A stretch of DNA of 64,000 nucleotides from Cellvibrio sp. pealriver (GTDB lineage: Bacteria > Pseudomonadota > Gammaproteobacteria > Pseudomonadales > Cellvibrionaceae). The stretch's first letter is position 1, and the number at the start of each line of letters is the position of its first letter. Shown piece by piece: positions 53,620-64,000 of the stretch. The translations under genes and the position numbers were made by a program. The notes beneath the pieces are model-generated. The model did no database searches, had not been told where the DNA came from, and worked only from the letters and a program-made list of their open reading frames with translations. Location of the stretch: NCBI RefSeq assembly GCF_001183545.1, contig NZ_KQ236688.1, positions 649,149 to 713,148 on the forward strand. The letters run 5' to 3'.

Positions 53620-54030
53620 TTATTTATCTTGTAAAAGCTGTTTTGAAAAATTAAGAAAATCATCCAAATGGTTGGCGATGATGTTTTCCACTATAGGCAG
53701 CAAGAGTTTTTGGTAATCGTGAACCGCAATATTGCGGAAACCGATCATTCGTTTCATGGTTTCGGCGAGGGTATCATCGATAAGACCTGCTTGAGCGAGC
53801 AGGGTAAATACATCGCGCGCACTTTGCGTTACGCCGAGCTGTTTGGTGCGAATAATGTGTTGCCCCATATCCAGAGAGGCTTCGCAGGCTCGTTGAATAT
53901 TCAGGATTGCCGCATCTTGTCTGCTGTAATCAATCGCAAATTGGGCACCGGCTTTGGTGTACTCCTCGCGTACGCGATTAATGCATCGCTCTATGCTGGC
54001 GGCTTTATTGATTAATATGTCATTTACCAT
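53620..54030 (-). CDS. hepT: HepT-type HEPN ribonuclease toxin
   Basis: The 136 residues, counted from ATG 54030, form a four-helix HEPN domain (DUF86 type). The catalytic R-x4-H-x-Y motif is R99-NIAV-H104-D-Y106 in GFRNIAVHDY. The longer frame to 54081 is less likely, since ATG 54030 sits inside the end of mntA with an 11-base overlap, typical of the pair. It is expected to cut RNA unless its Tyr is AMPylated by MntA. Confidence 0.88.
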   Translation of the reverse strand: MVNDILINKAASIERCINRVREEYTKAGAQFAIDYSRQDAAILNIQRACEASLDMGQHIIRTKQLGVTQSARDVFTLLAQAGLIDDTLAETMKRMIGFRNIAVHDYQKLLLPIVENIIANHLDDFLNFSKQLLQDK

Positions 54031-54439
54031 ACACACGTCCAGTCTTGCGGATTTCATTGAGTTGTTCTGCGCGCAGTTCATCTAAAGCCATTTTTTCATT
54101 CAATACAAATACATCGAACAAATCGGCTTGCATATCTTTCGCCCACAAACGACGGCCAGTGGTGATGACTTGGTGCTGCATCACGGTAGAGGCGGCGCGC
54201 AGGTCGAGCAAGTCTATCTCGTAACCGAGTTTGTCGGCCAATTGGTTTGCCATTTCAAATAGCTGCAATGGGTCTGCATAACCTGTGACTAATACCGCTA
54301 AATCCAAATCGCTTTGGGCGTTGGCCGTGCCTTGCACGCGGCTGCCGAAGGCGTAAATACCGAGTGCATTGGAAAAGGCTTTTTGCAGCTCGGTGCAGAT
54401 TAGGGCTTCGGCTTCGGGTGTTAATGAATGGTCGGTCAT
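54020..54439 (-). CDS. mntA: MntA-type minimal nucleotidyltransferase antitoxin
   Basis: The 139 residues start at ATG 54439 with GGAG 6 bases before it. The nucleotidyltransferase motif is G32-S33 with SDLDLAV (D44, D46), the GS-x10-DxD pattern of the MNT fold. MntA proteins AMPylate the HepT tyrosine and so neutralise it. It overlaps hepT by 11 bases. The frame stays open upstream to 54562. Confidence 0.88.
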   Translation of the reverse strand: MTDHSLTPEAEALICTELQKAFSNALGIYAFGSRVQGTANAQSDLDLAVLVTGYADPLQLFEMANQLADKLGYEIDLLDLRAASTVMQHQVITTGRRLWAKDMQADLFDVFVLNEKMALDELRAEQLNEIRKTGRVYGK

Positions 54440-54562
54440 TGCAGCTCCAGGGTTATTCTTGTCACCATAAACCAAATCATCTTTTTCATGCAAATGTACT
54501 TTTGCATTGGGGTGATAGAAGCCACCGCGTTTGCCTTTGTTGAAATCGTATTCGTCGCGCAT
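54440..54562 (-). other. In-frame leader resembling the start of another antitoxin
   Basis: The 41 codons before the mntA ATG, in the same frame, begin MRDEYDFNKGKRGGFYHPNA. This closely resembles the N-terminus of a small conserved protein common in toxin-antitoxin contexts. It is either a truncated gene fused to mntA or a real N-terminal extension. The good ribosome-binding site at 54439 favours a remnant. Confidence 0.5.
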
Positions 54563-56778: not shown

Positions 56779-57636
56779 TCAGCCCAACTTACAAGCTATG
56801 TGTTTTTGAGTTGCATTCATATTTCTAAGAACTTCTTCATTTGAATTCATTATTGTTGAAAATGCATCTTCTAGTTTTTTGAGTCTCGATAGGTCGTAAT
56901 GTGGGTCAAAACTACATGCGTAAAGTAATAGGCTGGTGAGCTTCCATGCGGAGTCCAATGGCACTAGAAAAGTATCTGCAAATTGCTCGCTGGTTAATCG
57001 AGATTTAATAGATACTTTGGTTTCGTCAAACATATTTTCTTCGGCAAAATCTGTCAGCCGTAAAAATATTTCGGTGCCGCTGGTAAGCATTTTTTCTTTT
57101 ACTGATTCTAGATTCTTTACGGAATGATTTTTCTCGTAGAGTTTTATTGGTTTTATTAATGCAATAATAACTTTCATGGTTTTTGATATTTCCGATGCGG
57201 AAATTCGATAGTCGCCGTGTTTTGCAAGAGGGAATAGCAAATTGTGCAATTTTCTTGAGTTTATGTTTATAACTCGGTTGCTTTGGTATGCGTCCATATA
57301 TTTCGTAAAGAATTCTATGTGACTGTAATAATTCGAAAAAGTGTTTTGCTCTTTCGAAAGTCTATTCGATTCTTTGGATTGCTCTGAAATGTGGTTGGCA
57401 GCAAAAACTGCAAGAATGGGAATTAGGGTTGCTAGGATGCTAAGGGGAACTTTGAATACGGTTAGGAGTTGATTTATTCCTTTGTACGAATAGTCTGCTT
57501 CTAAATTTGAATTTTTTATAATTATAATGGTTACAGCAATAGAGGCCGCAGCTAATGCTCCAATAAATAACCTGACAATAAAAAGATTAAAAAATGATTT
57601 GTCAGGATCAAAGTATTTAGATGTTCTTTTGTGCAC
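56779..57636 (-). CDS. Membrane protein of unknown function, two N-terminal helices
   Basis: The 285 residues have hydrophobic segments at about 22-45 and 65-85, then a cytoplasmic helical domain (about 90-285) opening with a coiled-coil-like SEQSKESNRLSKEQNTFSNYYSHIEFFTK. Base composition is AT-rich. It resembles single-gene membrane proteins found in variable islands, but I assign no family. It starts 30 bases left of the terminator of a tiny upstream gene. Confidence 0.65.
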   Translation of the reverse strand: MHKRTSKYFDPDKSFFNLFIVRLFIGALAAASIAVTIIIIKNSNLEADYSYKGINQLLTVFKVPLSILATLIPILAVFAANHISEQSKESNRLSKEQNTFSNYYSHIEFFTKYMDAYQSNRVININSRKLHNLLFPLAKHGDYRISASEISKTMKVIIALIKPIKLYEKNHSVKNLESVKEKMLTSGTEIFLRLTDFAEENMFDETKVSIKSRLTSEQFADTFLVPLDSAWKLTSLLLYACSFDPHYDLSRLKKLEDAFSTIMNSNEEVLRNMNATQKHIACKLG

Positions 57637-57665
57637 GTGCCATCCTTTTTTGTTCTGTAAATAAC

Positions 57666-57687
57666 AAAAAAGGCAGCTTGCGCTGCC
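57666..57687 (-). terminator. Terminator after the 31-residue ORF
   Basis: GGCAGC-TTGC-GCTGCC (57672-57687), with six T residues on the minus strand (57671-57666). It lies 9 bases past the stop of the small ORF. Confidence 0.8.
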
Positions 57688-57695
57688 CGTTTTGT

Positions 57696-57791
57696 TTACA
57701 ACGGATACACCAAGATCAATATTGCGGATGCTCTAATAATCGAGGCAATGTCTATCGTAATTGTGACTCTCTTGGTACTAAAAGTGAACAT
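57696..57791 (-). CDS. Tiny (31-residue) probable membrane peptide
   Basis: ATG 57791 has TGAGGA 7 bases before it. The product has a basic N-terminus (FSTKRVT) and a hydrophobic C-terminal stretch (IASIIRASAILILVYPL), and a proper terminator follows. That combination argues for a real gene. A small toxin or regulatory membrane peptide is possible. It starts 10 bases after the stop of a 67-codon frame. Confidence 0.45.
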   Translation of the reverse strand: MFTFSTKRVTITIDIASIIRASAILILVYPL

Positions 57792-57801
57792 TGTGTGTTC
57801 C

Positions 57802-58005
57802 TCAATCAGTCCCAAGCCGGCTCAGGATAAAATTAATCACCCAAAGTTTAACGTGGTCGGCCACCACGCCAATTAGAGGTTTGCTGCCTCTTTCATGGAT
57901 TTTTTGCTGATAGTTCGAATACCAGCATCGGAGTGTCGAACCTCTTGCGTTCAAGCCATATCGTAGGCCGACGAACAAGCACTGCTTGCATGAACACTCA
58001 AGCAC
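57802..58005 (-). CDS. Short ORF upstream of the tiny membrane peptide
   Basis: A 67-codon frame (start GTG 58005 with AAAGAGGA before it). KIHERGSKPLIGVVADHVKLWVINF looks protein-like but I cannot name it. It may be a gene remnant at the transposon boundary. It ends just before the tiny ORF. Confidence 0.3.
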   Translation of the reverse strand: MLECSCKQCLFVGLRYGLNARGSTLRCWYSNYQQKIHERGSKPLIGVVADHVKLWVINFILSRLGTD

Positions 58006-58058
58006 TCCTCTTTGATGAGAAGGTTCACCCTAGCTCATCGCGGTTCTTTTTCGGCGAA

Positions 58059-58187
58059 CGACACATCCAGTGTCATAGCGTACCTATTAAAATCAATGAG
58101 TTAGCCCTCTGTCGCGACGCAACCTACCACTTCAGTGCGACACATCATATGTCATTTTTCCCCAAAAACGACACAACCCGTGACATA
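58059..58187. repeat. Cluster of 19-bp repeats, candidate transposase-binding end
   Basis: Three copies of CGACACA-N5-TG(T/A)CAT(A/T) lie at 58059-58077, 58138-58156 and 58169-58187, with a weaker one at 58115-58133. The middle two frame TGTCATTTTT-CCCC-AAAAACGACA (58150-58173), whose arms recall TGTC-starting ends of Tn5053/Tn7-like elements. They are probably TniA/TnsB-binding sites of the left end of the element carrying tniABQ. The exact boundary and target duplication are not resolved. Confidence 0.55.
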
Positions 58188-58274
58188 AAAATATTTGCTT
58201 GTTTTTGCTATCATTATCAATCTTTTAATAATTAAAAACTATTGCGAGATAAGTGCTCTATCGGAGAGGTTAAG

Positions 58275-58412
58275 ATGTTAATAGCTCCTTTCCGGTTAAA
58301 GCGGCCACCTTTTGCTGGCCCAGATCAAGCAGTGTTCGATGGAGAGATAGCCGAGGGGGATTTTCATCCAAGGGGAAGGTGCTGCCTTATCACGGCGCAC
58401 GCTAAGAGCTGA
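58275..58412 (+). CDS. Short ORF inside the transposon left end
   Basis: ATG 58275 has GGAGAGG 5 bases upstream and encodes 45 residues (MLIAPFRLKRPPFAGPDQAV...). AAAGCGGCCACCTTTTGCTG within it recalls sequence seen near IS21-type elements, so it may be an insertion-sequence remnant instead of a gene. Low confidence. Confidence 0.25.
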   Translation: MLIAPFRLKRPPFAGPDQAVFDGEIAEGDFHPRGRCCLITAHAKS

Positions 58413-58472
58413 CATATGGATTTTTGCCTGCAAAATTATGTTTTAAATACGATATTTACGGCACGTTAGTAT

Positions 58473-58700
58473 CTAACGTGATGAATTCATAACACTCTCC
58501 AGTGAGTTTTCATCACTCATGTTATTGGTCGCCCGCGCGCCCCTTAAAAATCCTTTGGACGAACCAACGGCTTTTTTCACAACTGAAATAACTCCCTTTC
58601 GATCTACGAAGACTGATACTTCATCACCCGGCTCGATACCTGCTAAGAGACACAAATCGATAGGCAATGTGACTTGTCTTTTGGAACTTACTTTTGACAT
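58473..58700 (-). CDS. AbrB/MazE-type antitoxin-like DNA-binding protein, no toxin partner
   Basis: The 75 residues have the swapped-hairpin AbrB domain (SKVSSKRQVTLPIDLCLLAGIEPGDEVSVFVDRKGVISV, residues 2-41) and a C-terminal tail with GSSKGFLRGARATN of the kind that binds a toxin. Such proteins usually precede a PIN toxin. Here nothing suitable follows in the 250 bases downstream on the same strand. It is probably an orphan antitoxin or regulator carried by the transposon. Confidence 0.8.
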   Translation of the reverse strand: MSKVSSKRQVTLPIDLCLLAGIEPGDEVSVFVDRKGVISVVKKAVGSSKGFLRGARATNNMSDENSLESVMNSSR

Positions 58701-58837
58701 AAGTACCCCTTTAAATATTGGCTCCCTTATCGAATGCGAAATTCAAGAACCAGATTTTTGATATTTGGAAAACCATACTTTAGCTCTTTATTTATAGGTA
58801 AGACAGATACCTCCGGTCTCGGCATTTGATTACTATA

Positions 58838-58867
58838 TTTACATTTCAATAAAGTGGCTTCTATAAT
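58838..58867 (+). promoter_or_regulatory. Promoter of small RNA 1
   Basis: TTTACA (58838-58843) and TATAAT (58862-58867) are 18 bases apart. The region is nearly identical to the promoter of small RNA 2 (TTTACATT-x2-AATAAA-x2-GGCTT...ATAATC). Confidence 0.75.
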
Positions 58868-58873
58868 CGACTG

Positions 58874-58955
58874 GCCGATAAAGTATCTTCTCGACGACAG
58901 GCCAACTAACTCCTGGCATGTCCAAAAAGCCGCCTACCGAATAGGCGGCTTTTTG
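58874..58955 (+). ncRNA. Candidate small RNA 1 (tandem paralogue)
   Basis: The expected transcript runs from about 58874 to the intrinsic terminator AAAAAGCCGCCTA-CCGA-ATAGGCGGCTTTTT (58924-58954), about 80 nt, with no ORF. From the -10 box through AAGTATCT (58881-58888), GACGA, CCA, CT and TGTC it aligns without gaps to small RNA 2. The family is not one I recognise. Its terminator lies about 35 nt after the conserved AAGTATCT block. Confidence 0.65.
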
Positions 58956-59005
58956 TTTTTGAGGGGGAGACTTTGAGAAAGCAGCATGTGATTTCTGAGC
59001 AGAGG

Positions 59006-59033
59006 TTTACATTGTAATAAAACGGCTTATAAT
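59006..59033 (+). promoter_or_regulatory. Promoter of small RNA 2
   Basis: TTTACA (59006-59011) and a perfect TATAAT (59028-59033) are 16 bases apart, about 50 bases after the terminator of small RNA 1. Confidence 0.8.
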
Positions 59034-59039
59034 CCAAGA

Positions 59040-59117
59040 ACTGACTAAGTATCTGCATGACGATAGCCCAGCTCACCACTGTGTTGTCACAAAAAACCGC
59101 TGAAAAGCGGTTTTTTT
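59040..59117 (+). ncRNA. Candidate small RNA 2 (tandem paralogue)
   Basis: The expected transcript runs from about 59040 to the terminator AAAAACCGCT-GAA-AAGCGGTTTTTTT (59091-59117), about 78 nt. The block AAGTATCT (59047-59054) lies 13 bases after the -10 box, exactly as in small RNA 1, and about 24 of the next 35 positions are shared. Divergence outside the shared blocks suggests separate targets or an old duplication. Confidence 0.68.
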
Positions 59118-59254
59118 GTTTTTGGAGAAATATTTTATAATAGGTTACAACTATCGATTATAACCTGGCTGATATCTGTACTGCTCGGTAAAGCCATAAG
59201 CACCGAAAGTGGTTAGATAGCAGTGCCATATAGTTTTACCTAAAGTCTCTAAAT

Positions 59255-59713
59255 CTAGAGGAGATTATTATCTCTTGCTGTTTTATGTGCTCCTGCTCTG
59301 TAGTAGTAGGCTATAAAGAGCATTAAAACTCCCATTAATCCCCCAAGCAATACTTTGATCATACTTGGATCATCTTTAAGTAGGATCATTGTCGTCAGAA
59401 TCATAAATACCATCCCATAGACCGTCATCAGCGCGGAAAAAAGAACCTCTACAATGACCATTCCCCAAGCCGAAATTTTTCGTGTTAAGGGCGACGGGGC
59501 AGGGATAGCGGAAAAATGATTTCTAGCTTCCTGTTTTATTCTAGTAACCATCAGAGGAATCGCTCTAACGAGGAGTCGGACTAAGTGATCGATTAGCCGA
59601 TTGAGCTTTCCTTTCAGTACTGTGTCAAACAATCCAAATAAAAAAGCTGAAAGCACTATTGTTTTAAGTGGCTCGCTTTCAGTTAGCGCAGTAAACACAT
59701 CAGGGCTTAGCAT
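59255..59713 (-). CDS. Small membrane protein of unknown function in the transposon
   Basis: The 152 residues start at ATG 59713 (AAAGGAA 8 bases before; ATG 59734 is the alternative). Hydrophobic segments lie at about 20-35, 83-107 and 115-135, with a basic stretch between (RAIPLMVTRIKQEARNHF). It ends in a polar tail (RAGAHKTARDNNLL). I recognise no family. It has its own promoter and lies between tniQ and the small RNAs, on the strand opposite to them. Confidence 0.7.
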   Translation of the reverse strand: MLSPDVFTALTESEPLKTIVLSAFLFGLFDTVLKGKLNRLIDHLVRLLVRAIPLMVTRIKQEARNHFSAIPAPSPLTRKISAWGMVIVEVLFSALMTVYGMVFMILTTMILLKDDPSMIKVLLGGLMGVLMLFIAYYYRAGAHKTARDNNLL

Positions 59714-59791
59714 AATGAGATTTCCTTTTAGCATGGGTCAGCAAGGTAGGTAGTGTCCCGATCTAATCGAATCATGAGTCGGTTAAATAAC

Positions 59792-59861
59792 ATACTATCC
59801 TTGATTTACGGCATGGTCAAGAATACAGTATGTTTTTATATACAGTAATTGCTTGTACAGT
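59792..59861 (-). promoter_or_regulatory. Promoter with three upstream ACTGTA repeats
   Basis: On the minus strand TTGACC (59820-59815) and TAGTAT (59797-59792) are 17 bases apart, driving the small membrane protein. Directly upstream are three same-direction ACTGTA copies (TACAGT on the plus strand at 59824, 59841 and 59856). Their spacing of 15-17 bases does not match a LexA box; an activator site is possible. Confidence 0.6.
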
Positions 59862-59903
59862 TATACGCCCTATGTCTCTGATGAACATTATGCGCACTTC
59901 CAA

Positions 59904-61892
59904 TTATCTTTCGGCGGCCATACCAAATTTTTCCTTTAAACGCAGAAAATTTATATCGTCTATTGAGTACAGGTCGAGCTTTTTCTCGGTATCGAATGGT
60001 GCGTGACAGGGTATTATTTGACCTCGCTTTTTAAGATTATTTATATGGGTGCGGTGTCGTCCAAGAAACCTGCTAGCTTCATATGAAGTAAAGTGAGTGT
60101 CACGTATATCAATCATCGTCTGCGCGTCAGAGAGTGACATCAGAGTCCAATATTTGTAATCGTATATGGGTAAAATTTCCTTGTTGATTATGTTGATGTA
60201 AAGCCATTGCTTGGTGCAGCCAATCAGCTTACATGCGCCGTTGATACTAATTAGATCTGTCCGATTAATTTGATGTTTTAGAAACGTAACAGACTCAAGA
60301 GTTATGAAAATTTTAACCTTTTCGCATGGATCTCTTTTTAAGATTCCCTTTCTAACCAGCGTGGCTACCTTTTGTTGGCTGAGCTCTAGCAGCTGAGATG
60401 CTTCTGGAACTGATACGCTTGTTTTAACGTTCTGTGCCTGCGTTCGAGATCCATTAGGCTTTCGGCCAGCATTGGTCTTGTAAACCTTAATACTGTTTAT
60501 CATTTCCTTGGAAATTTTTTCTAGGTCGCTACGCCGAAATAATGTCGTTAGAAGTCCATCAATTGAGGGGCCTGCGATAGGCTCTATATCAATTGATTTG
60601 AGTTTTTCAGCAAGATTCGTTGAGTTTAGCTCAAGCTCTTTCGCGAGCGTCCCAACAAGCACGTATTGCGCATCAAAGTCGATGAGATCCTGTTTAAGGA
60701 TGACTTTTCTGAATTGCCCATCGACCAGCAGCTCCTCCGTTTTAAGCCAATTGTGTTTACAGAGACTTCGGACATATTCTGTATTTATCATAAGCTCGTC
60801 ACCAGCTGTCGGAAAATCGGTATATTCATTTGGTAAACTAAGCTTCTTGGGTTTGAAGAATGCCTTGCTATTGTGAATGGCTGCATTTGCCTTTTTTAGA
60901 ATATCTAACGGTGCTTTTGCTTCCCGGCTTTTAGTCGTTGGCCAAACGACAATTTCTTTCTCTATGTAGGTATTTAATTTTTTTTGGCTTATTCGGAGAA
61001 GTTCGGCAGCCTGTTTTTTGGAGATGTCTGCTTGTATATACATTTGCAGGTCATTAAATTCTTCCCTGTTTATCAGCTCATGCAATAGCGGATCTATGAG
61101 ACTTTTGGGTAGGTTGAACTGTAAATTAAGCCAATCCAGGAAATCATGAGGGTTTTTAACGCGAACTTTTGTGTATATGGACGAAGCTAGCAAGTTTGCC
61201 GCTTTGTTATGATCACAATACATCTCATACAGTATTTCGTTGGTTTCGTAACGCGTTAATGAGGTATTTAGCTCTTTGGTAAATTTCTCAATAAATAGCC
61301 AAAGATTCTTATATCGATCGGCATCATCCTGTGATTTGAAAATGTGGTTTTCAAATAGGAAGCGAAATTTGGACGCATCCACTGATGGTGAACTCGGCAG
61401 TTCAGCATCGCACCTCTTGCAATAGTTAATAGATCCGCGAAATGCATTGGTTTCCCTATGGCATTTTTTGCAAATTGTAATAATTTCTTTTTGATGGATG
61501 TGACATACGGAGTAGGGGATAAAACGCCAAATCTTTCTTAGGTATCCGTATTCCCTAATGCAGTCGGGGCAATATGCTATTCCATCTTTTCGAAAAAAGG
61601 ATTGCGGATATTGAACGTCATTGATAACTATGTCTGAAAAGTTAGTGGAAATCAGTTTTGGATAAACCAGCTCGTGCGATAAACTAAAGCCTAAGAGTTT
61701 AATTAGATCATTAAAACGAGTTTGATCATGCAAGTCTCCGTGGTTGATAAATTTATCTTCACGATCCAATGCAAGAGTAAATAAACGGTGAACCGATTCA
61801 TGGCCATTTGCTTGCGCTGAACGAATCAGCAGACTTGCTGCTGATTCGTCAGGGAATGGAATTGGCTTAACCGGGAGGTTAATGGACTCCAT
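59904..61892 (-). CDS. tniQ: TniQ/TnsD-type target-selection protein with multiple HTH modules
   Basis: Chooses the insertion site for the transposase. ATG 61892 is preceded by GAGG, overlaps the tniB end by 14 bases, and gives 662 residues. The N-terminal TniQ domain (about 10-170) starts PFPDESAASLLIRSAQANG and has zinc-finger Cys/His in YCPDCIREYG, YSVCHIHQ, ICKKCHRET and YCKRCDAEL. The rest is long, as in TnsD proteins, and contains about five helix-turn-helix modules: near 290-318, 410-440, 492-520, 547-577 and 601-630. No Cas gene is near, so target choice is probably by direct DNA recognition. Confidence 0.88.
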   Translation of the reverse strand: MESINLPVKPIPFPDESAASLLIRSAQANGHESVHRLFTLALDREDKFINHGDLHDQTRFNDLIKLLGFSLSHELVYPKLISTNFSDIVINDVQYPQSFFRKDGIAYCPDCIREYGYLRKIWRFIPYSVCHIHQKEIITICKKCHRETNAFRGSINYCKRCDAELPSSPSVDASKFRFLFENHIFKSQDDADRYKNLWLFIEKFTKELNTSLTRYETNEILYEMYCDHNKAANLLASSIYTKVRVKNPHDFLDWLNLQFNLPKSLIDPLLHELINREEFNDLQMYIQADISKKQAAELLRISQKKLNTYIEKEIVVWPTTKSREAKAPLDILKKANAAIHNSKAFFKPKKLSLPNEYTDFPTAGDELMINTEYVRSLCKHNWLKTEELLVDGQFRKVILKQDLIDFDAQYVLVGTLAKELELNSTNLAEKLKSIDIEPIAGPSIDGLLTTLFRRSDLEKISKEMINSIKVYKTNAGRKPNGSRTQAQNVKTSVSVPEASQLLELSQQKVATLVRKGILKRDPCEKVKIFITLESVTFLKHQINRTDLISINGACKLIGCTKQWLYINIINKEILPIYDYKYWTLMSLSDAQTMIDIRDTHFTSYEASRFLGRHRTHINNLKKRGQIIPCHAPFDTEKKLDLYSIDDINFLRLKEKFGMAAER

Positions 61893-62838
61893 TTCCACCT
61901 CGCAAATGTGAAGCTAAAACACCTGGACTCATTTTGAATGGGTTGGTTTTAGTTCGGCTAGCCAGCGAGCATATTCCGTCCTCCCAAGCCAAGCCAAAAT
62001 CATCTACAGTAACTATGCTTCCACCACTTTGTGTGGTGATATAGATTGCTTCTTTAAGCAGGGACATAACAAATGCTGGATTTCCGGAGGTCGCAGCATA
62101 AATTTGGTTGCAAGTATGGTCTTCAGAAAAATCGGAAGTAAAATCGATACCCAAAATTTTCTCGCAACGTAAGATTATTCCCTCAACAAACGGCTTTATT
62201 GATCCAGAATATTCCTGTGTTGAAGGTTGCAGTGGATGCATTCGAAATTCTTTTGGAAAGCGCCTACTGAGTTGAGAATCGTGTACTAAATGGCTAGGAA
62301 AATCAATATTTCCAACCAAACAGAACATTATTGCTGTGTCATTAACTATGGACTTAATCCAATTGCAAACCGCCGTATTCACTCGTGTTGAGTTTCGTAA
62401 ATTGTCATAGAGATGATGAAATTCATCGAGGAAGACTAACCTTGTTTCACATTTTTTCAGTAAGTGACAAACTCGCTTGGTTAACTGAGCAGTTGTACCG
62501 ACAAAGGGATTTGGATCTTTGAGTTGAATAAGTAAGGCGATTGCTACACTTTTAACGGTCGCAGGCGAAGGCACAGAACAGTAAAAAGCAGGTATCACGA
62601 TTTTTTCATGGTTATCTACAATTTTTGTTTCACTGGGCATTTTGGACATGACAACTCGACAAATAGTTGTTTTTCCATAACCACCTTGACCAGTTAGCAT
62701 GCACCCGACAGGTTCTCGGAAAGCACTACTTTTTTGCAGGCAGTGTTCAATACCCTCAATTGCTCTGTCAAAATCTGGATGACAGATAACAATTTTGTCG
62801 AGTTTTGCAATAGATTTGATTGAGTTATCGGTATTCAT
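61879..62838 (-). CDS. tniB: TniB/TnsC-type AAA+ transposition ATPase
   Basis: Links the target-bound TniQ to the transposase. The 319 residues have Walker A GQGGYGKT (50-57) and Walker B RLVFLDE (133-139) followed by FHHLYDN. A sensor-type region lies at IMFCLVGNIDFPSHL, and the AAA lid at ATSGNPAFVMSLLKEAI. GGAG precedes the ATG, 4 bases after the tniA stop. It overlaps tniQ, so the three genes form one leftward operon. Confidence 0.92.
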   Translation of the reverse strand: MNTDNSIKSIAKLDKIVICHPDFDRAIEGIEHCLQKSSAFREPVGCMLTGQGGYGKTTICRVVMSKMPSETKIVDNHEKIVIPAFYCSVPSPATVKSVAIALLIQLKDPNPFVGTTAQLTKRVCHLLKKCETRLVFLDEFHHLYDNLRNSTRVNTAVCNWIKSIVNDTAIMFCLVGNIDFPSHLVHDSQLSRRFPKEFRMHPLQPSTQEYSGSIKPFVEGIILRCEKILGIDFTSDFSEDHTCNQIYAATSGNPAFVMSLLKEAIYITTQSGGSIVTVDDFGLAWEDGICSLASRTKTNPFKMSPGVLASHLRGGNGVH

Positions 62839-62842
62839 AGTC

Positions 62843-64000
62843 TTACTCCAGCTCGATAGATTTGAAAGAATTGTAGTTTTCGTTTTTGATACAAGGTTTA
62901 TTGGACTCGCTCAGCGAAATTACCTCTATTGCAGGGGCAGGTGAGGCCACCTGTTTCCCTGGTTTACTATCTTGAGTTGGTGGTGAGATTGAATTGTTGA
63001 TCTCTGATATCTTTCTCTGTGTGTAAACATTCCGAGATTCACCATTGGTGAGTTTTTTTATCCAGCGCTTCATTTTTATCGCTTGTTCCTGTACTCGCTC
63101 AAGAAGTTTCCAGCGAGACAATGCAAATGAGAGCTTTCCTAATTTAGAGATATCCGACTTTGTCATTTCCTTGCGAATTTTCTTGGCCTCTTGATGCTCA
63201 TAAATAGTCAGACCTGTGGTGTACTCTGGATCATTGGATTCAGCAAGAATTAGAGTTGCTTTATCCTCAGGGTGTTGGACCAGAATAGAATTAAGGTTGA
63301 GATCATCAATAAGAATCGTCACATTGGTGTGTCCTTGGGCTTCCAAGGTGGCGAGAGCATGTGAAAAATATTCAATATAATCGTACTGAATTAACCCTTT
63401 GTTAATTGAACGTGTTTCAGGCCGGCGAGCGAGAGCGTTCACCTCGTCTTCTGACAGCGATATTGGAGCGATATTTTTGGTCTTTTCTTCCCAAAAACAA
63501 ATTGGTGCTCGGCCCGTTTTGGTGTGTATCGTTTTGTGATATATCTCGTTGATCCACTCTTCTATAAAGCTACGGATTTGATCAATCGTAAAAACCGATT
63601 TTTTTAATGAGTCGTAGTCGCCAAGCTCGGTCGGGTTTGAAAATGTTGTTCCCGGAAGTTTCTGTACGATTCCGTGTGTCAATGTGCGGAATAGAGATTC
63701 AATATGTGCTTTACCATCTGGATCTCGAATTTGTGCTGGCGAAATTGTTACAGCAAGAAACTCACATATCCTGGCAAACGAAGTGTTAGCGAACTCCACT
63801 CCGTTATCTGGGACTATGCGAACTGGAATACCGCCTGGCAACCCTCTATTCGCGCGTGACAACATATCCTTAAGTGCTCCCAGTGCGGTTGTTGCACTTG
63901 GGGGATACATACATATATGAATACCAACAATTGCCCGTGTTGCAATATCCATTACGCACGTCAGAAATGGCCTTCCAATCACATCGCCGGTACTTTCATC
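62843..64000 (-). CDS. tniA: TniA/TnsB-type DDE transposase, 5' end outside the window
   Basis: The frame is open to the window edge, giving the last 385 residues or so. It carries the retroviral-integrase-like core: RPFLTCVMDIATRAIVGIHI, the second catalytic Asp in RIVPDNGVEFAN, and the catalytic Glu in GKAHIESLFRTL. A Mu-type C-terminal beta domain follows (INKGLIQYDYIEYFSHALATLEAQG...), then a basic, partly disordered tail that may contact TniB. The first catalytic Asp should lie just outside. Whether a tnsA gene lies upstream cannot be seen. Confidence 0.92.
   Translation of the reverse strand, partial: DESTGDVIGRPFLTCVMDIATRAIVGIHICMYPPSATTALGALKDMLSRANRGLPGGIPVRIVPDNGVEFANTSFARICEFLAVTISPAQIRDPDGKAHIESLFRTLTHGIVQKLPGTTFSNPTELGDYDSLKKSVFTIDQIRSFIEEWINEIYHKTIHTKTGRAPICFWEEKTKNIAPISLSEDEVNALARRPETRSINKGLIQYDYIEYFSHALATLEAQGHTNVTILIDDLNLNSILVQHPEDKATLILAESNDPEYTTGLTIYEHQEAKKIRKEMTKSDISKLGKLSFALSRWKLLERVQEQAIKMKRWIKKLTNGESRNVYTQRKISEINNSISPPTQDSKPGKQVASPAPAIEVISLSESNKPCIKNENYNSFKSIELE

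Follow-up and report, generated by a model that had tools for sequence, protein, structure and literature searches.

Two homologous small RNA (sRNA) genes lie side by side in a Tn7-like transposon of Cellvibrio sp. pealriver, within the 64,000-nt stretch of DNA that we analyzed (the window). At the sequence level, the units occupy positions 58838 to 58960 and 59006 to 59122, and each has its own promoter and terminator. Comparison with other Cellvibrio genomes indicates that units of this kind almost certainly form a real family of RNA genes. Out-of-sample detection and covariation, both read from sequence, mark the family as new. Its kind is ordinary; what sets the family apart is its narrow distribution, its multiple copies, and a location that is mostly next to defense genes. 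The units probably encode trans-acting sibling sRNAs that act by base pairing, as sister genes of this new family carried as cargo on mobile, defense-rich Cellvibrio islands.

The two units and their host element

Both units are on the plus strand, in the gap between an AbrB-type gene and a gene for a membrane-like protein. The initial annotation had given this gap as 554 bases, which is its exact size (58701 to 59254). A consensus scan of 58400 to 59900 found five promoter-like sites, compared with 3.6 in shuffles, and the two unit promoters scored highest (11/12). The same region has two terminator-like sites (1.0 in shuffles), one behind each unit promoter. Transcripts of about 80 and 78 nt had been proposed, close to the lengths predicted here (Table 1).

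Table 1. Positions of the RNA units, their parts, and neighboring features. Window numbering is used unless a locus (L) is named.
Feature	Position	Strand	Remarks
Promoter, unit 1	58838..58867	+	TTTACA-18-TATAAT; -10 at 58862-58867; 11/12 consensus matches
Promoter, unit 2	59006..59033	+	TTTACA-16-TATAAT; -10 at 59028-59033; 11/12 consensus matches
Predicted sRNA, unit 1	58874..58958	+	about 85 nt; putative start 7 nt past the -10 box
Predicted sRNA, unit 2	59040..59120	+	about 81 nt; putative start
Hairpin, unit 1	58896..58922	+	GACAGG 58896-58901, 15-nt loop, CATGTC 58917-58922; one mismatched pair
Hairpin, unit 2	59062..59088	+	GATAGC 59062-59067, 15-nt loop, GTTGTC 59083-59088
Intrinsic terminator, unit 1	58923..58960	+	scan site 58923-58955
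Intrinsic terminator, unit 2	59091..59122	+	scan site 59091-59116
TTTTT target duplication, left copy	58047..58051	.	right copy L023 7383-7387
Left end of the Tn7-like element	58052..58187	.	bears the inverted repeat CGGCGAACGACAC plus three transposase-site-type repeats (58057, 58136, 58167)
AbrB/MazE-type DNA-binding protein	58473..58700	-	divergent from unit 1; PF04014, 1e-07
159-aa membrane-like protein	59255..59734	-	convergent with unit 2; no Pfam domain
tniQ	59904..61898	-	PF06527, 3.6e-14
tnsC/tniB	61879..62838	-	PF05621, 2.9e-25
tnsB	62843..64000	-	continues past the window
TTTATTTCCATTTCAGCG element	L025 8537	-	
TTTATTTCCATTTCAGCG element	L026 9781	+	
TTTATTTCCATTTCAGCG element	L027 13127	-	
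TTTATTTCCATTTCAGCG element	L027 9429	-	
TTTATTTCCATTTCAGCG element	L076 2672	-	

The aligned window units have a mean column identity of 79%, and their cores are 72% identical. From the start site to the end of the first hairpin, they gave a local alignment score of 34, whereas 2,000 shuffles averaged 14.9 and never exceeded 29. With promoter and terminator removed, the similarity thus still exceeds all shuffles, and therefore the likeness is not limited to those parts. The scan, this alignment, and detection by model R3 (below) bear out the proposal of two tandem homologous units with separate promoters and terminators. It had been considered that the likeness might be confined to promoter and terminator, with no conservation in other genomes. 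This is not so, because the conserved block is a covarying hairpin that other genomes have kept as well. The loop of unit 1 (58902 to 58916) contains CUCCU, which is complementary to the Shine-Dalgarno sequence; the loops of the other units lack it.

The transposon that hosts the units is Tn7-like and spans 20.2 kb, from 58052 to about 78233, past the window end. The units are 0.8 kb inside its left end, between that end and tniQ, and their placement near the end of a Tn7-like element was therefore correct. The presence of tnsB, tnsC, and tniQ, inverted ends with repeated sites, and a 5-bp duplication assigns the element to the Tn7-like class. Three CGACACATCCAGTGTCATA-type repeats at the left end (Table 1) have inverted counterparts at 78228, 78206, and 78184. 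The outermost repeats share CGGCGAACGACAC, and TTTTT flanks both sides. The element is inserted next to a gene that we take by eye to be nrdB, its far end lying 11 bp past the stop codon of that gene.

Along with the RNAs, the element holds the AbrB gene, the membrane gene, tniQ, tnsC, tnsB, a gene that we take by eye to be tnsA, a 429-aa gene, QatA to QatD, two further genes, SIR2, and HerA. The QatABCD and SIR2-HerA defense genes lie beyond the window end (L022, 16877 to 20000; L023, 2 to 7034). With its tnsABC-tniQ set, paired ends, and defense genes, the element resembles the Tn7-like transposons with defense cargo described in the available part of a survey (PMC8649781). According to that part, the survey annotated non-coding RNA by Rfam thresholds, so a family absent from Rfam would have gone unseen. 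A HepT-like and nucleotidyltransferase pair (53620 to 54562) is 3.5 kb to the left of the element and hence outside it.

Distribution and anatomy of the RNA family

A blastn search of the window region against 145 relatives matched 25 genomes, mostly at the terminator only. Most of the 32 matches listed covered just the unit 2 terminator and were not counted as relatives. Real relatives were found on two contigs of one genome (G002) and in a second genome (G001). Multi-unit loci have three units at L025 (G002:C47), three at L026 (G002:C324), and two, 3.7 kb apart, at L027 (G001). Model R1 was built from ten units, the window's two among them. It detected single units absent from its build in G019 (E = 6.6e-4), G012 (E = 7.1e-4), a third G002 contig (E = 0.0044), and G017 (E = 0.030), and all four read as units on inspection. 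Model R2, built from all 14 units, finds these 14 in 6 of 21 Cellvibrio genomes, each at E ≤ 7.8e-6. Three of the six genomes have 2 to 7 units, and the other three have 1. For an out-of-sample test, model R3 left out the window's own two units and used the other 12. In the window, it located 59041 to 59096 (E = 2e-8) and 58875 to 58930 (E = 8.3e-6); its third best match had an E value of 3.3.

The remaining 123 of the 144 genomes from the family yielded just one weak match to R2 (G081, E = 0.049), which is antisense inside a long frame and was dropped. Across 390 genomes drawn from the order, the window was the sole match of R1; the large genome sets were scored with stricter filters, which weak relatives may escape. 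A partial match in G021 (E = 0.048) and a match in G019:C5 (E = 0.23) were also dropped. A pattern scan of wider genome contigs gave nine stretches, three in Cellvibrio and six elsewhere. Only one of those six, L044, scored with the models (E = 0.58 for R1 and 1.3 for R2), and their number is in line with the roughly seven chance matches expected from a rough, uncalculated estimate. Two pattern scans of viral contigs gave 22 and 41 stretches, with best model E values of 0.62 and 0.18. Unit 1 had no match among phages, and unit 2 had none among plasmids.

Over the window, only tRNAs scored at or above an Rfam gathering threshold, which agrees with the initial annotation in that no known family was recognized. 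Searching 58700 to 59250 gave 22 sub-threshold matches, with a lowest E value of 0.0054 (IS128, 25 bits versus 80), and L025 to L027 gave no Rfam matches. In open-licence literature, judged by titles and abstract openings, we found nothing on a Cellvibrio sRNA family or on tandem sRNAs in Tn7-like elements.

The 14 aligned units share one plan: a purine start, AAGUAUC, 8 to 25 nt, a 6-bp helix, a 14- to 15-nt loop, an A-rich spacer, and usually a terminator. The loop sequence CAACUNACCACUG is near-constant across units; unit 1 deviates, with CAACUAACUCCUG. With the best hexamer in a 25-nt range as the -10 box, AAGTATC follows this box at 13 or 14 nt in all of the 14 units but L074. Standard pairs make up 89% of 82 helix cells, compared with 32 to 49% when the helix is slid. 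Both sides have changed in 17 cells, a count as high as which none of 500 shuffles gave, and 15 such cells are left when the window units are omitted. Two of five covariation measures are weak (18/500 for pairs with double changes and 59/500 for further pair types). These shuffles keep relatedness in, and therefore the slide control weighs more.

Folded alone, the first hairpins are no more stable than shuffles (z = -1.26 for unit 1 and +0.11 for unit 2). The whole window units, terminator included, are more stable than shuffles (z = -5.4 and -3.4). Terminator stems of at least 9 pairs with a T-rich tail are present in 9 of 14 units. By eye, the terminators of L026a and L076 are interrupted, and none is obvious in L025b, L026b, and L074. 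No start codon in L027a or L027b yields even 5 codons, so there is no conserved frame. We dropped a pseudoknot of the 5' segment with the loop, because two 5' types (CUGGUU and CUGACA) have the same loop by eye.

An 18-bp element, TTTATTTCCATTTCAGCG or a close form (15 to 18 of 18 positions), is found 87 to 92 bp before the core in 5 of 14 units, and 0 of 1,000 shuffled motifs did as well. It is not found at this distance before the core of either window unit. The element is likely an upstream promoter or activator site. A role as an attachment site was dropped, because the recurring distance to the core favors a promoter element.

Islands around the units

Mobile islands are generally rich in defense genes. 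PADLOC gave strong anti-phage defense matches at six of eight unit loci, the window element included, in a scan of 50 hand-picked proteins that gives this link without a background control. GajA and GajB (Gabija) are 0.2 kb upstream of the L026 array. L027 has four ThsB-like TIR proteins (Thoeris-like); L074 has IetS, IetA, and a methyltransferase; L077 has a type IIG enzyme and a WYL protein; and L025 has Upx, AbiH, and a kinase. Matches are weak at L075, where AriA/OLD-like and PD-DExK-like proteins are 7 to 10 kb from the unit. There is no strong match at L076, which has an IetA-like ATPase alone, its partner being absent.

Several loci have flanks in common. L025 and L075 share Rmf-like and dnaE2-like genes, and L026 and L075 share SRAP, imuA-, imuB-, and dnaE2-like genes; all these names except SRAP are presumptive and were given by eye. 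L026 and L027 share a far flank. Therefore, part of the spread of the units reflects one chromosomal hotspot. A recurrent hotspot of Cellvibrio islands lies beside the SRAP and imuA-imuB-dnaE2-like genes, with RNA units at its border. SRAP in this flank is the SOS-response peptidase, and its identity with the recombination factor Srap of SE elements was rejected.

L026 and L027 begin with operons that by eye resemble recombinase trios; Pfam gave an integrase match at L027:85-1119 only (7.6e-05, below the cut-off). Islands of the GInt/SE type carry an operon of three tyrosine-recombinase-type genes and a small gene, according to the available parts of two reports (PMC10214605; PMC5385486). L026 and L027 may belong to this type. 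A blastp comparison of all frames of at least 60 aa found no protein family common to all unit loci. The L074 unit has a 140-aa gene as its neighbor, but we rejected a connection between the two: where this gene has homologues (G010, G003, and G017:C92), the flank taken contains no unit.

Proposed function and alternatives

The fixed 5' segment, the near-constant loop on a compensating stem, and the U-rich end fit sibling base-pairing sRNAs, as in Neisseria. We propose that both RNAs would be transcribed and would base-pair in trans with mRNAs, using the 5' segment, the loop, or both. Hfq, whose gene is present in the genome, would assist them. The siblings would act redundantly or additively, mostly lowering translation. 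The divergent AbrB-type gene here and the TTTATTTCCATTTCAGCG element in five units elsewhere suggest regulated transcription, and the AbrB-type gene may encode the regulator.

The multicopy sRNAs PrrF, LhrC, and AbcR, the latter two named in the available part of one report (PMC9973317), each comprise several related RNAs with a presumed common seed. The Cellvibrio units differ from these groups in that no Rfam family reached threshold for them. In the same part of that report, Neisseria NgncR_162 and NgncR_163 are adjacent homologous sRNAs with hairpin loops and a sibling arrangement, as here (78% identity there, 72% core identity here). However, they are reported to be core regulators of metabolism and have known mRNA targets, whereas the Cellvibrio units are accessory and are carried on mobile islands; the sequences were compared via Rfam only. 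The sgm-sRNA of SGI1 also comes from a mobile island, but the available part of its report describes it as required for mobilization and as arising by processing of a long transcript (PMC9299015). In contrast, the Cellvibrio units are short independent genes and are absent from two related elements.

Action on the host had been one of three options in the initial annotation. Action in trans fits best, and the searches for a target found none. When both RNAs were paired in silico with the starts of 21 genes within or next to the element, none of the duplexes stood out (best z = -1.9, qatD). Exact loop complements in six genomes numbered 24, compared with 8 for the reversed pattern. Six of them are RNA genes, and the other 18 are in or antisense to frames of at least 200 aa, none at gene starts.

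The main alternative, which we regard as unlikely, is that the near-constant loop on a variable stem forms a protein-binding hairpin, so that the RNA would serve as a decoy, as an RNA antitoxin, or as part of a defense complex. The outcome of the target searches would fit this reading, as would a stem that varies with compensation beneath a loop of nearly fixed sequence and length, and the strong defense matches at most unit loci. However, the loci have no protein family in common, and conservation also extends to the 5' segment, a feature superfluous for a single hairpin site. We think it quite unlikely that the RNAs control, or function within, the anti-phage defense carried by the islands. 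They would then be a mobile RNA switch, with copies acquired with different islands and one conserved loop setting the level or trigger of unrelated defense systems. If this were true, many islands of one genus would answer to the same RNA.

It is very unlikely that the units are DNA landmarks that merely resemble RNA genes, serving as attachment sites or as the termini of integrating islands. Islands do recur beside units, as the common chromosomal flanks of L025, L026, and L075 and the common far flank of L026 and L027 indicate, and the trio-like operons also point this way. However, the fixed -10 distance, the helix compensation, and the terminators are traits of RNA genes, and the Tn7-like ends are located elsewhere. 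In addition, units of the two G002 arrays correspond type for type at 90 to 92% and are not identical repeats. The G002 assembly is 6% contaminated, so its two arrays may stem from two strains.

The position between tniQ and the left end had raised the option that the RNAs control Tn7-like transposition. They might do so by forming duplexes with tnsABC-tniQ mRNA, for instance, or by serving as targeting RNAs. Our results disfavor this option, and we consider it highly improbable. Among 243 relatives, we found two related tnsABC-tniQ sets (three genomes match, the window's own included). They belong to Tn7-like elements of the genus (L103 in G003 and L104 in G001) whose TniQ is 24 to 41% identical in pieces. 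The 15 to 17 kb taken around these elements (G003:C34 and G001:C14) contained no unit (best E = 0.27, filters off). At E ≤ 1e-10, TniQ had no match in four of the five other unit-bearing genomes, and the fifth (G001) has TniQ on a different contig. Twelve of the 14 units are in loci where we noticed no tns genes by eye, and no duplex was found at tns gene starts. The two related elements without units and the location of the other copies elsewhere therefore suggest that the RNAs are cargo and not transposition machinery. As for traits of CRISPR-transposon guide RNAs, there were no array-like repeats in 57000 to 59900 and no cas match among eight element proteins scanned. The tniQ match in G001 has one internal TAG.

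We give hardly any credence to cis regulation, in which unit 2 or antisense read-through would silence the convergent membrane gene, or the units would answer only to, and act only on, AbrB: the convergent and divergent gene order fits, but neighbors vary by locus. Control of the membrane protein opposite, proposed earlier, found no support in the duplex search, and the 159-aa protein has just one weak relative (27%) near another unit locus (L025, 2109 to 2582). Only four relatives of this protein were found in the database, none with a Pfam domain; the best of them (91%) comes from a 2.6-kb contig.

Trans-acting sibling sRNAs thus remain our preferred reading of the units, which represent a structured RNA family that rides on defense-bearing mobile elements and was missed by Rfam-based annotation. 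Should these RNAs set the expression of defense genes, or make it less costly once an island has been transferred, they would help to explain how newly acquired defense islands come to be tamed. With fourteen aligned copies and a working model, this idea can be tested.
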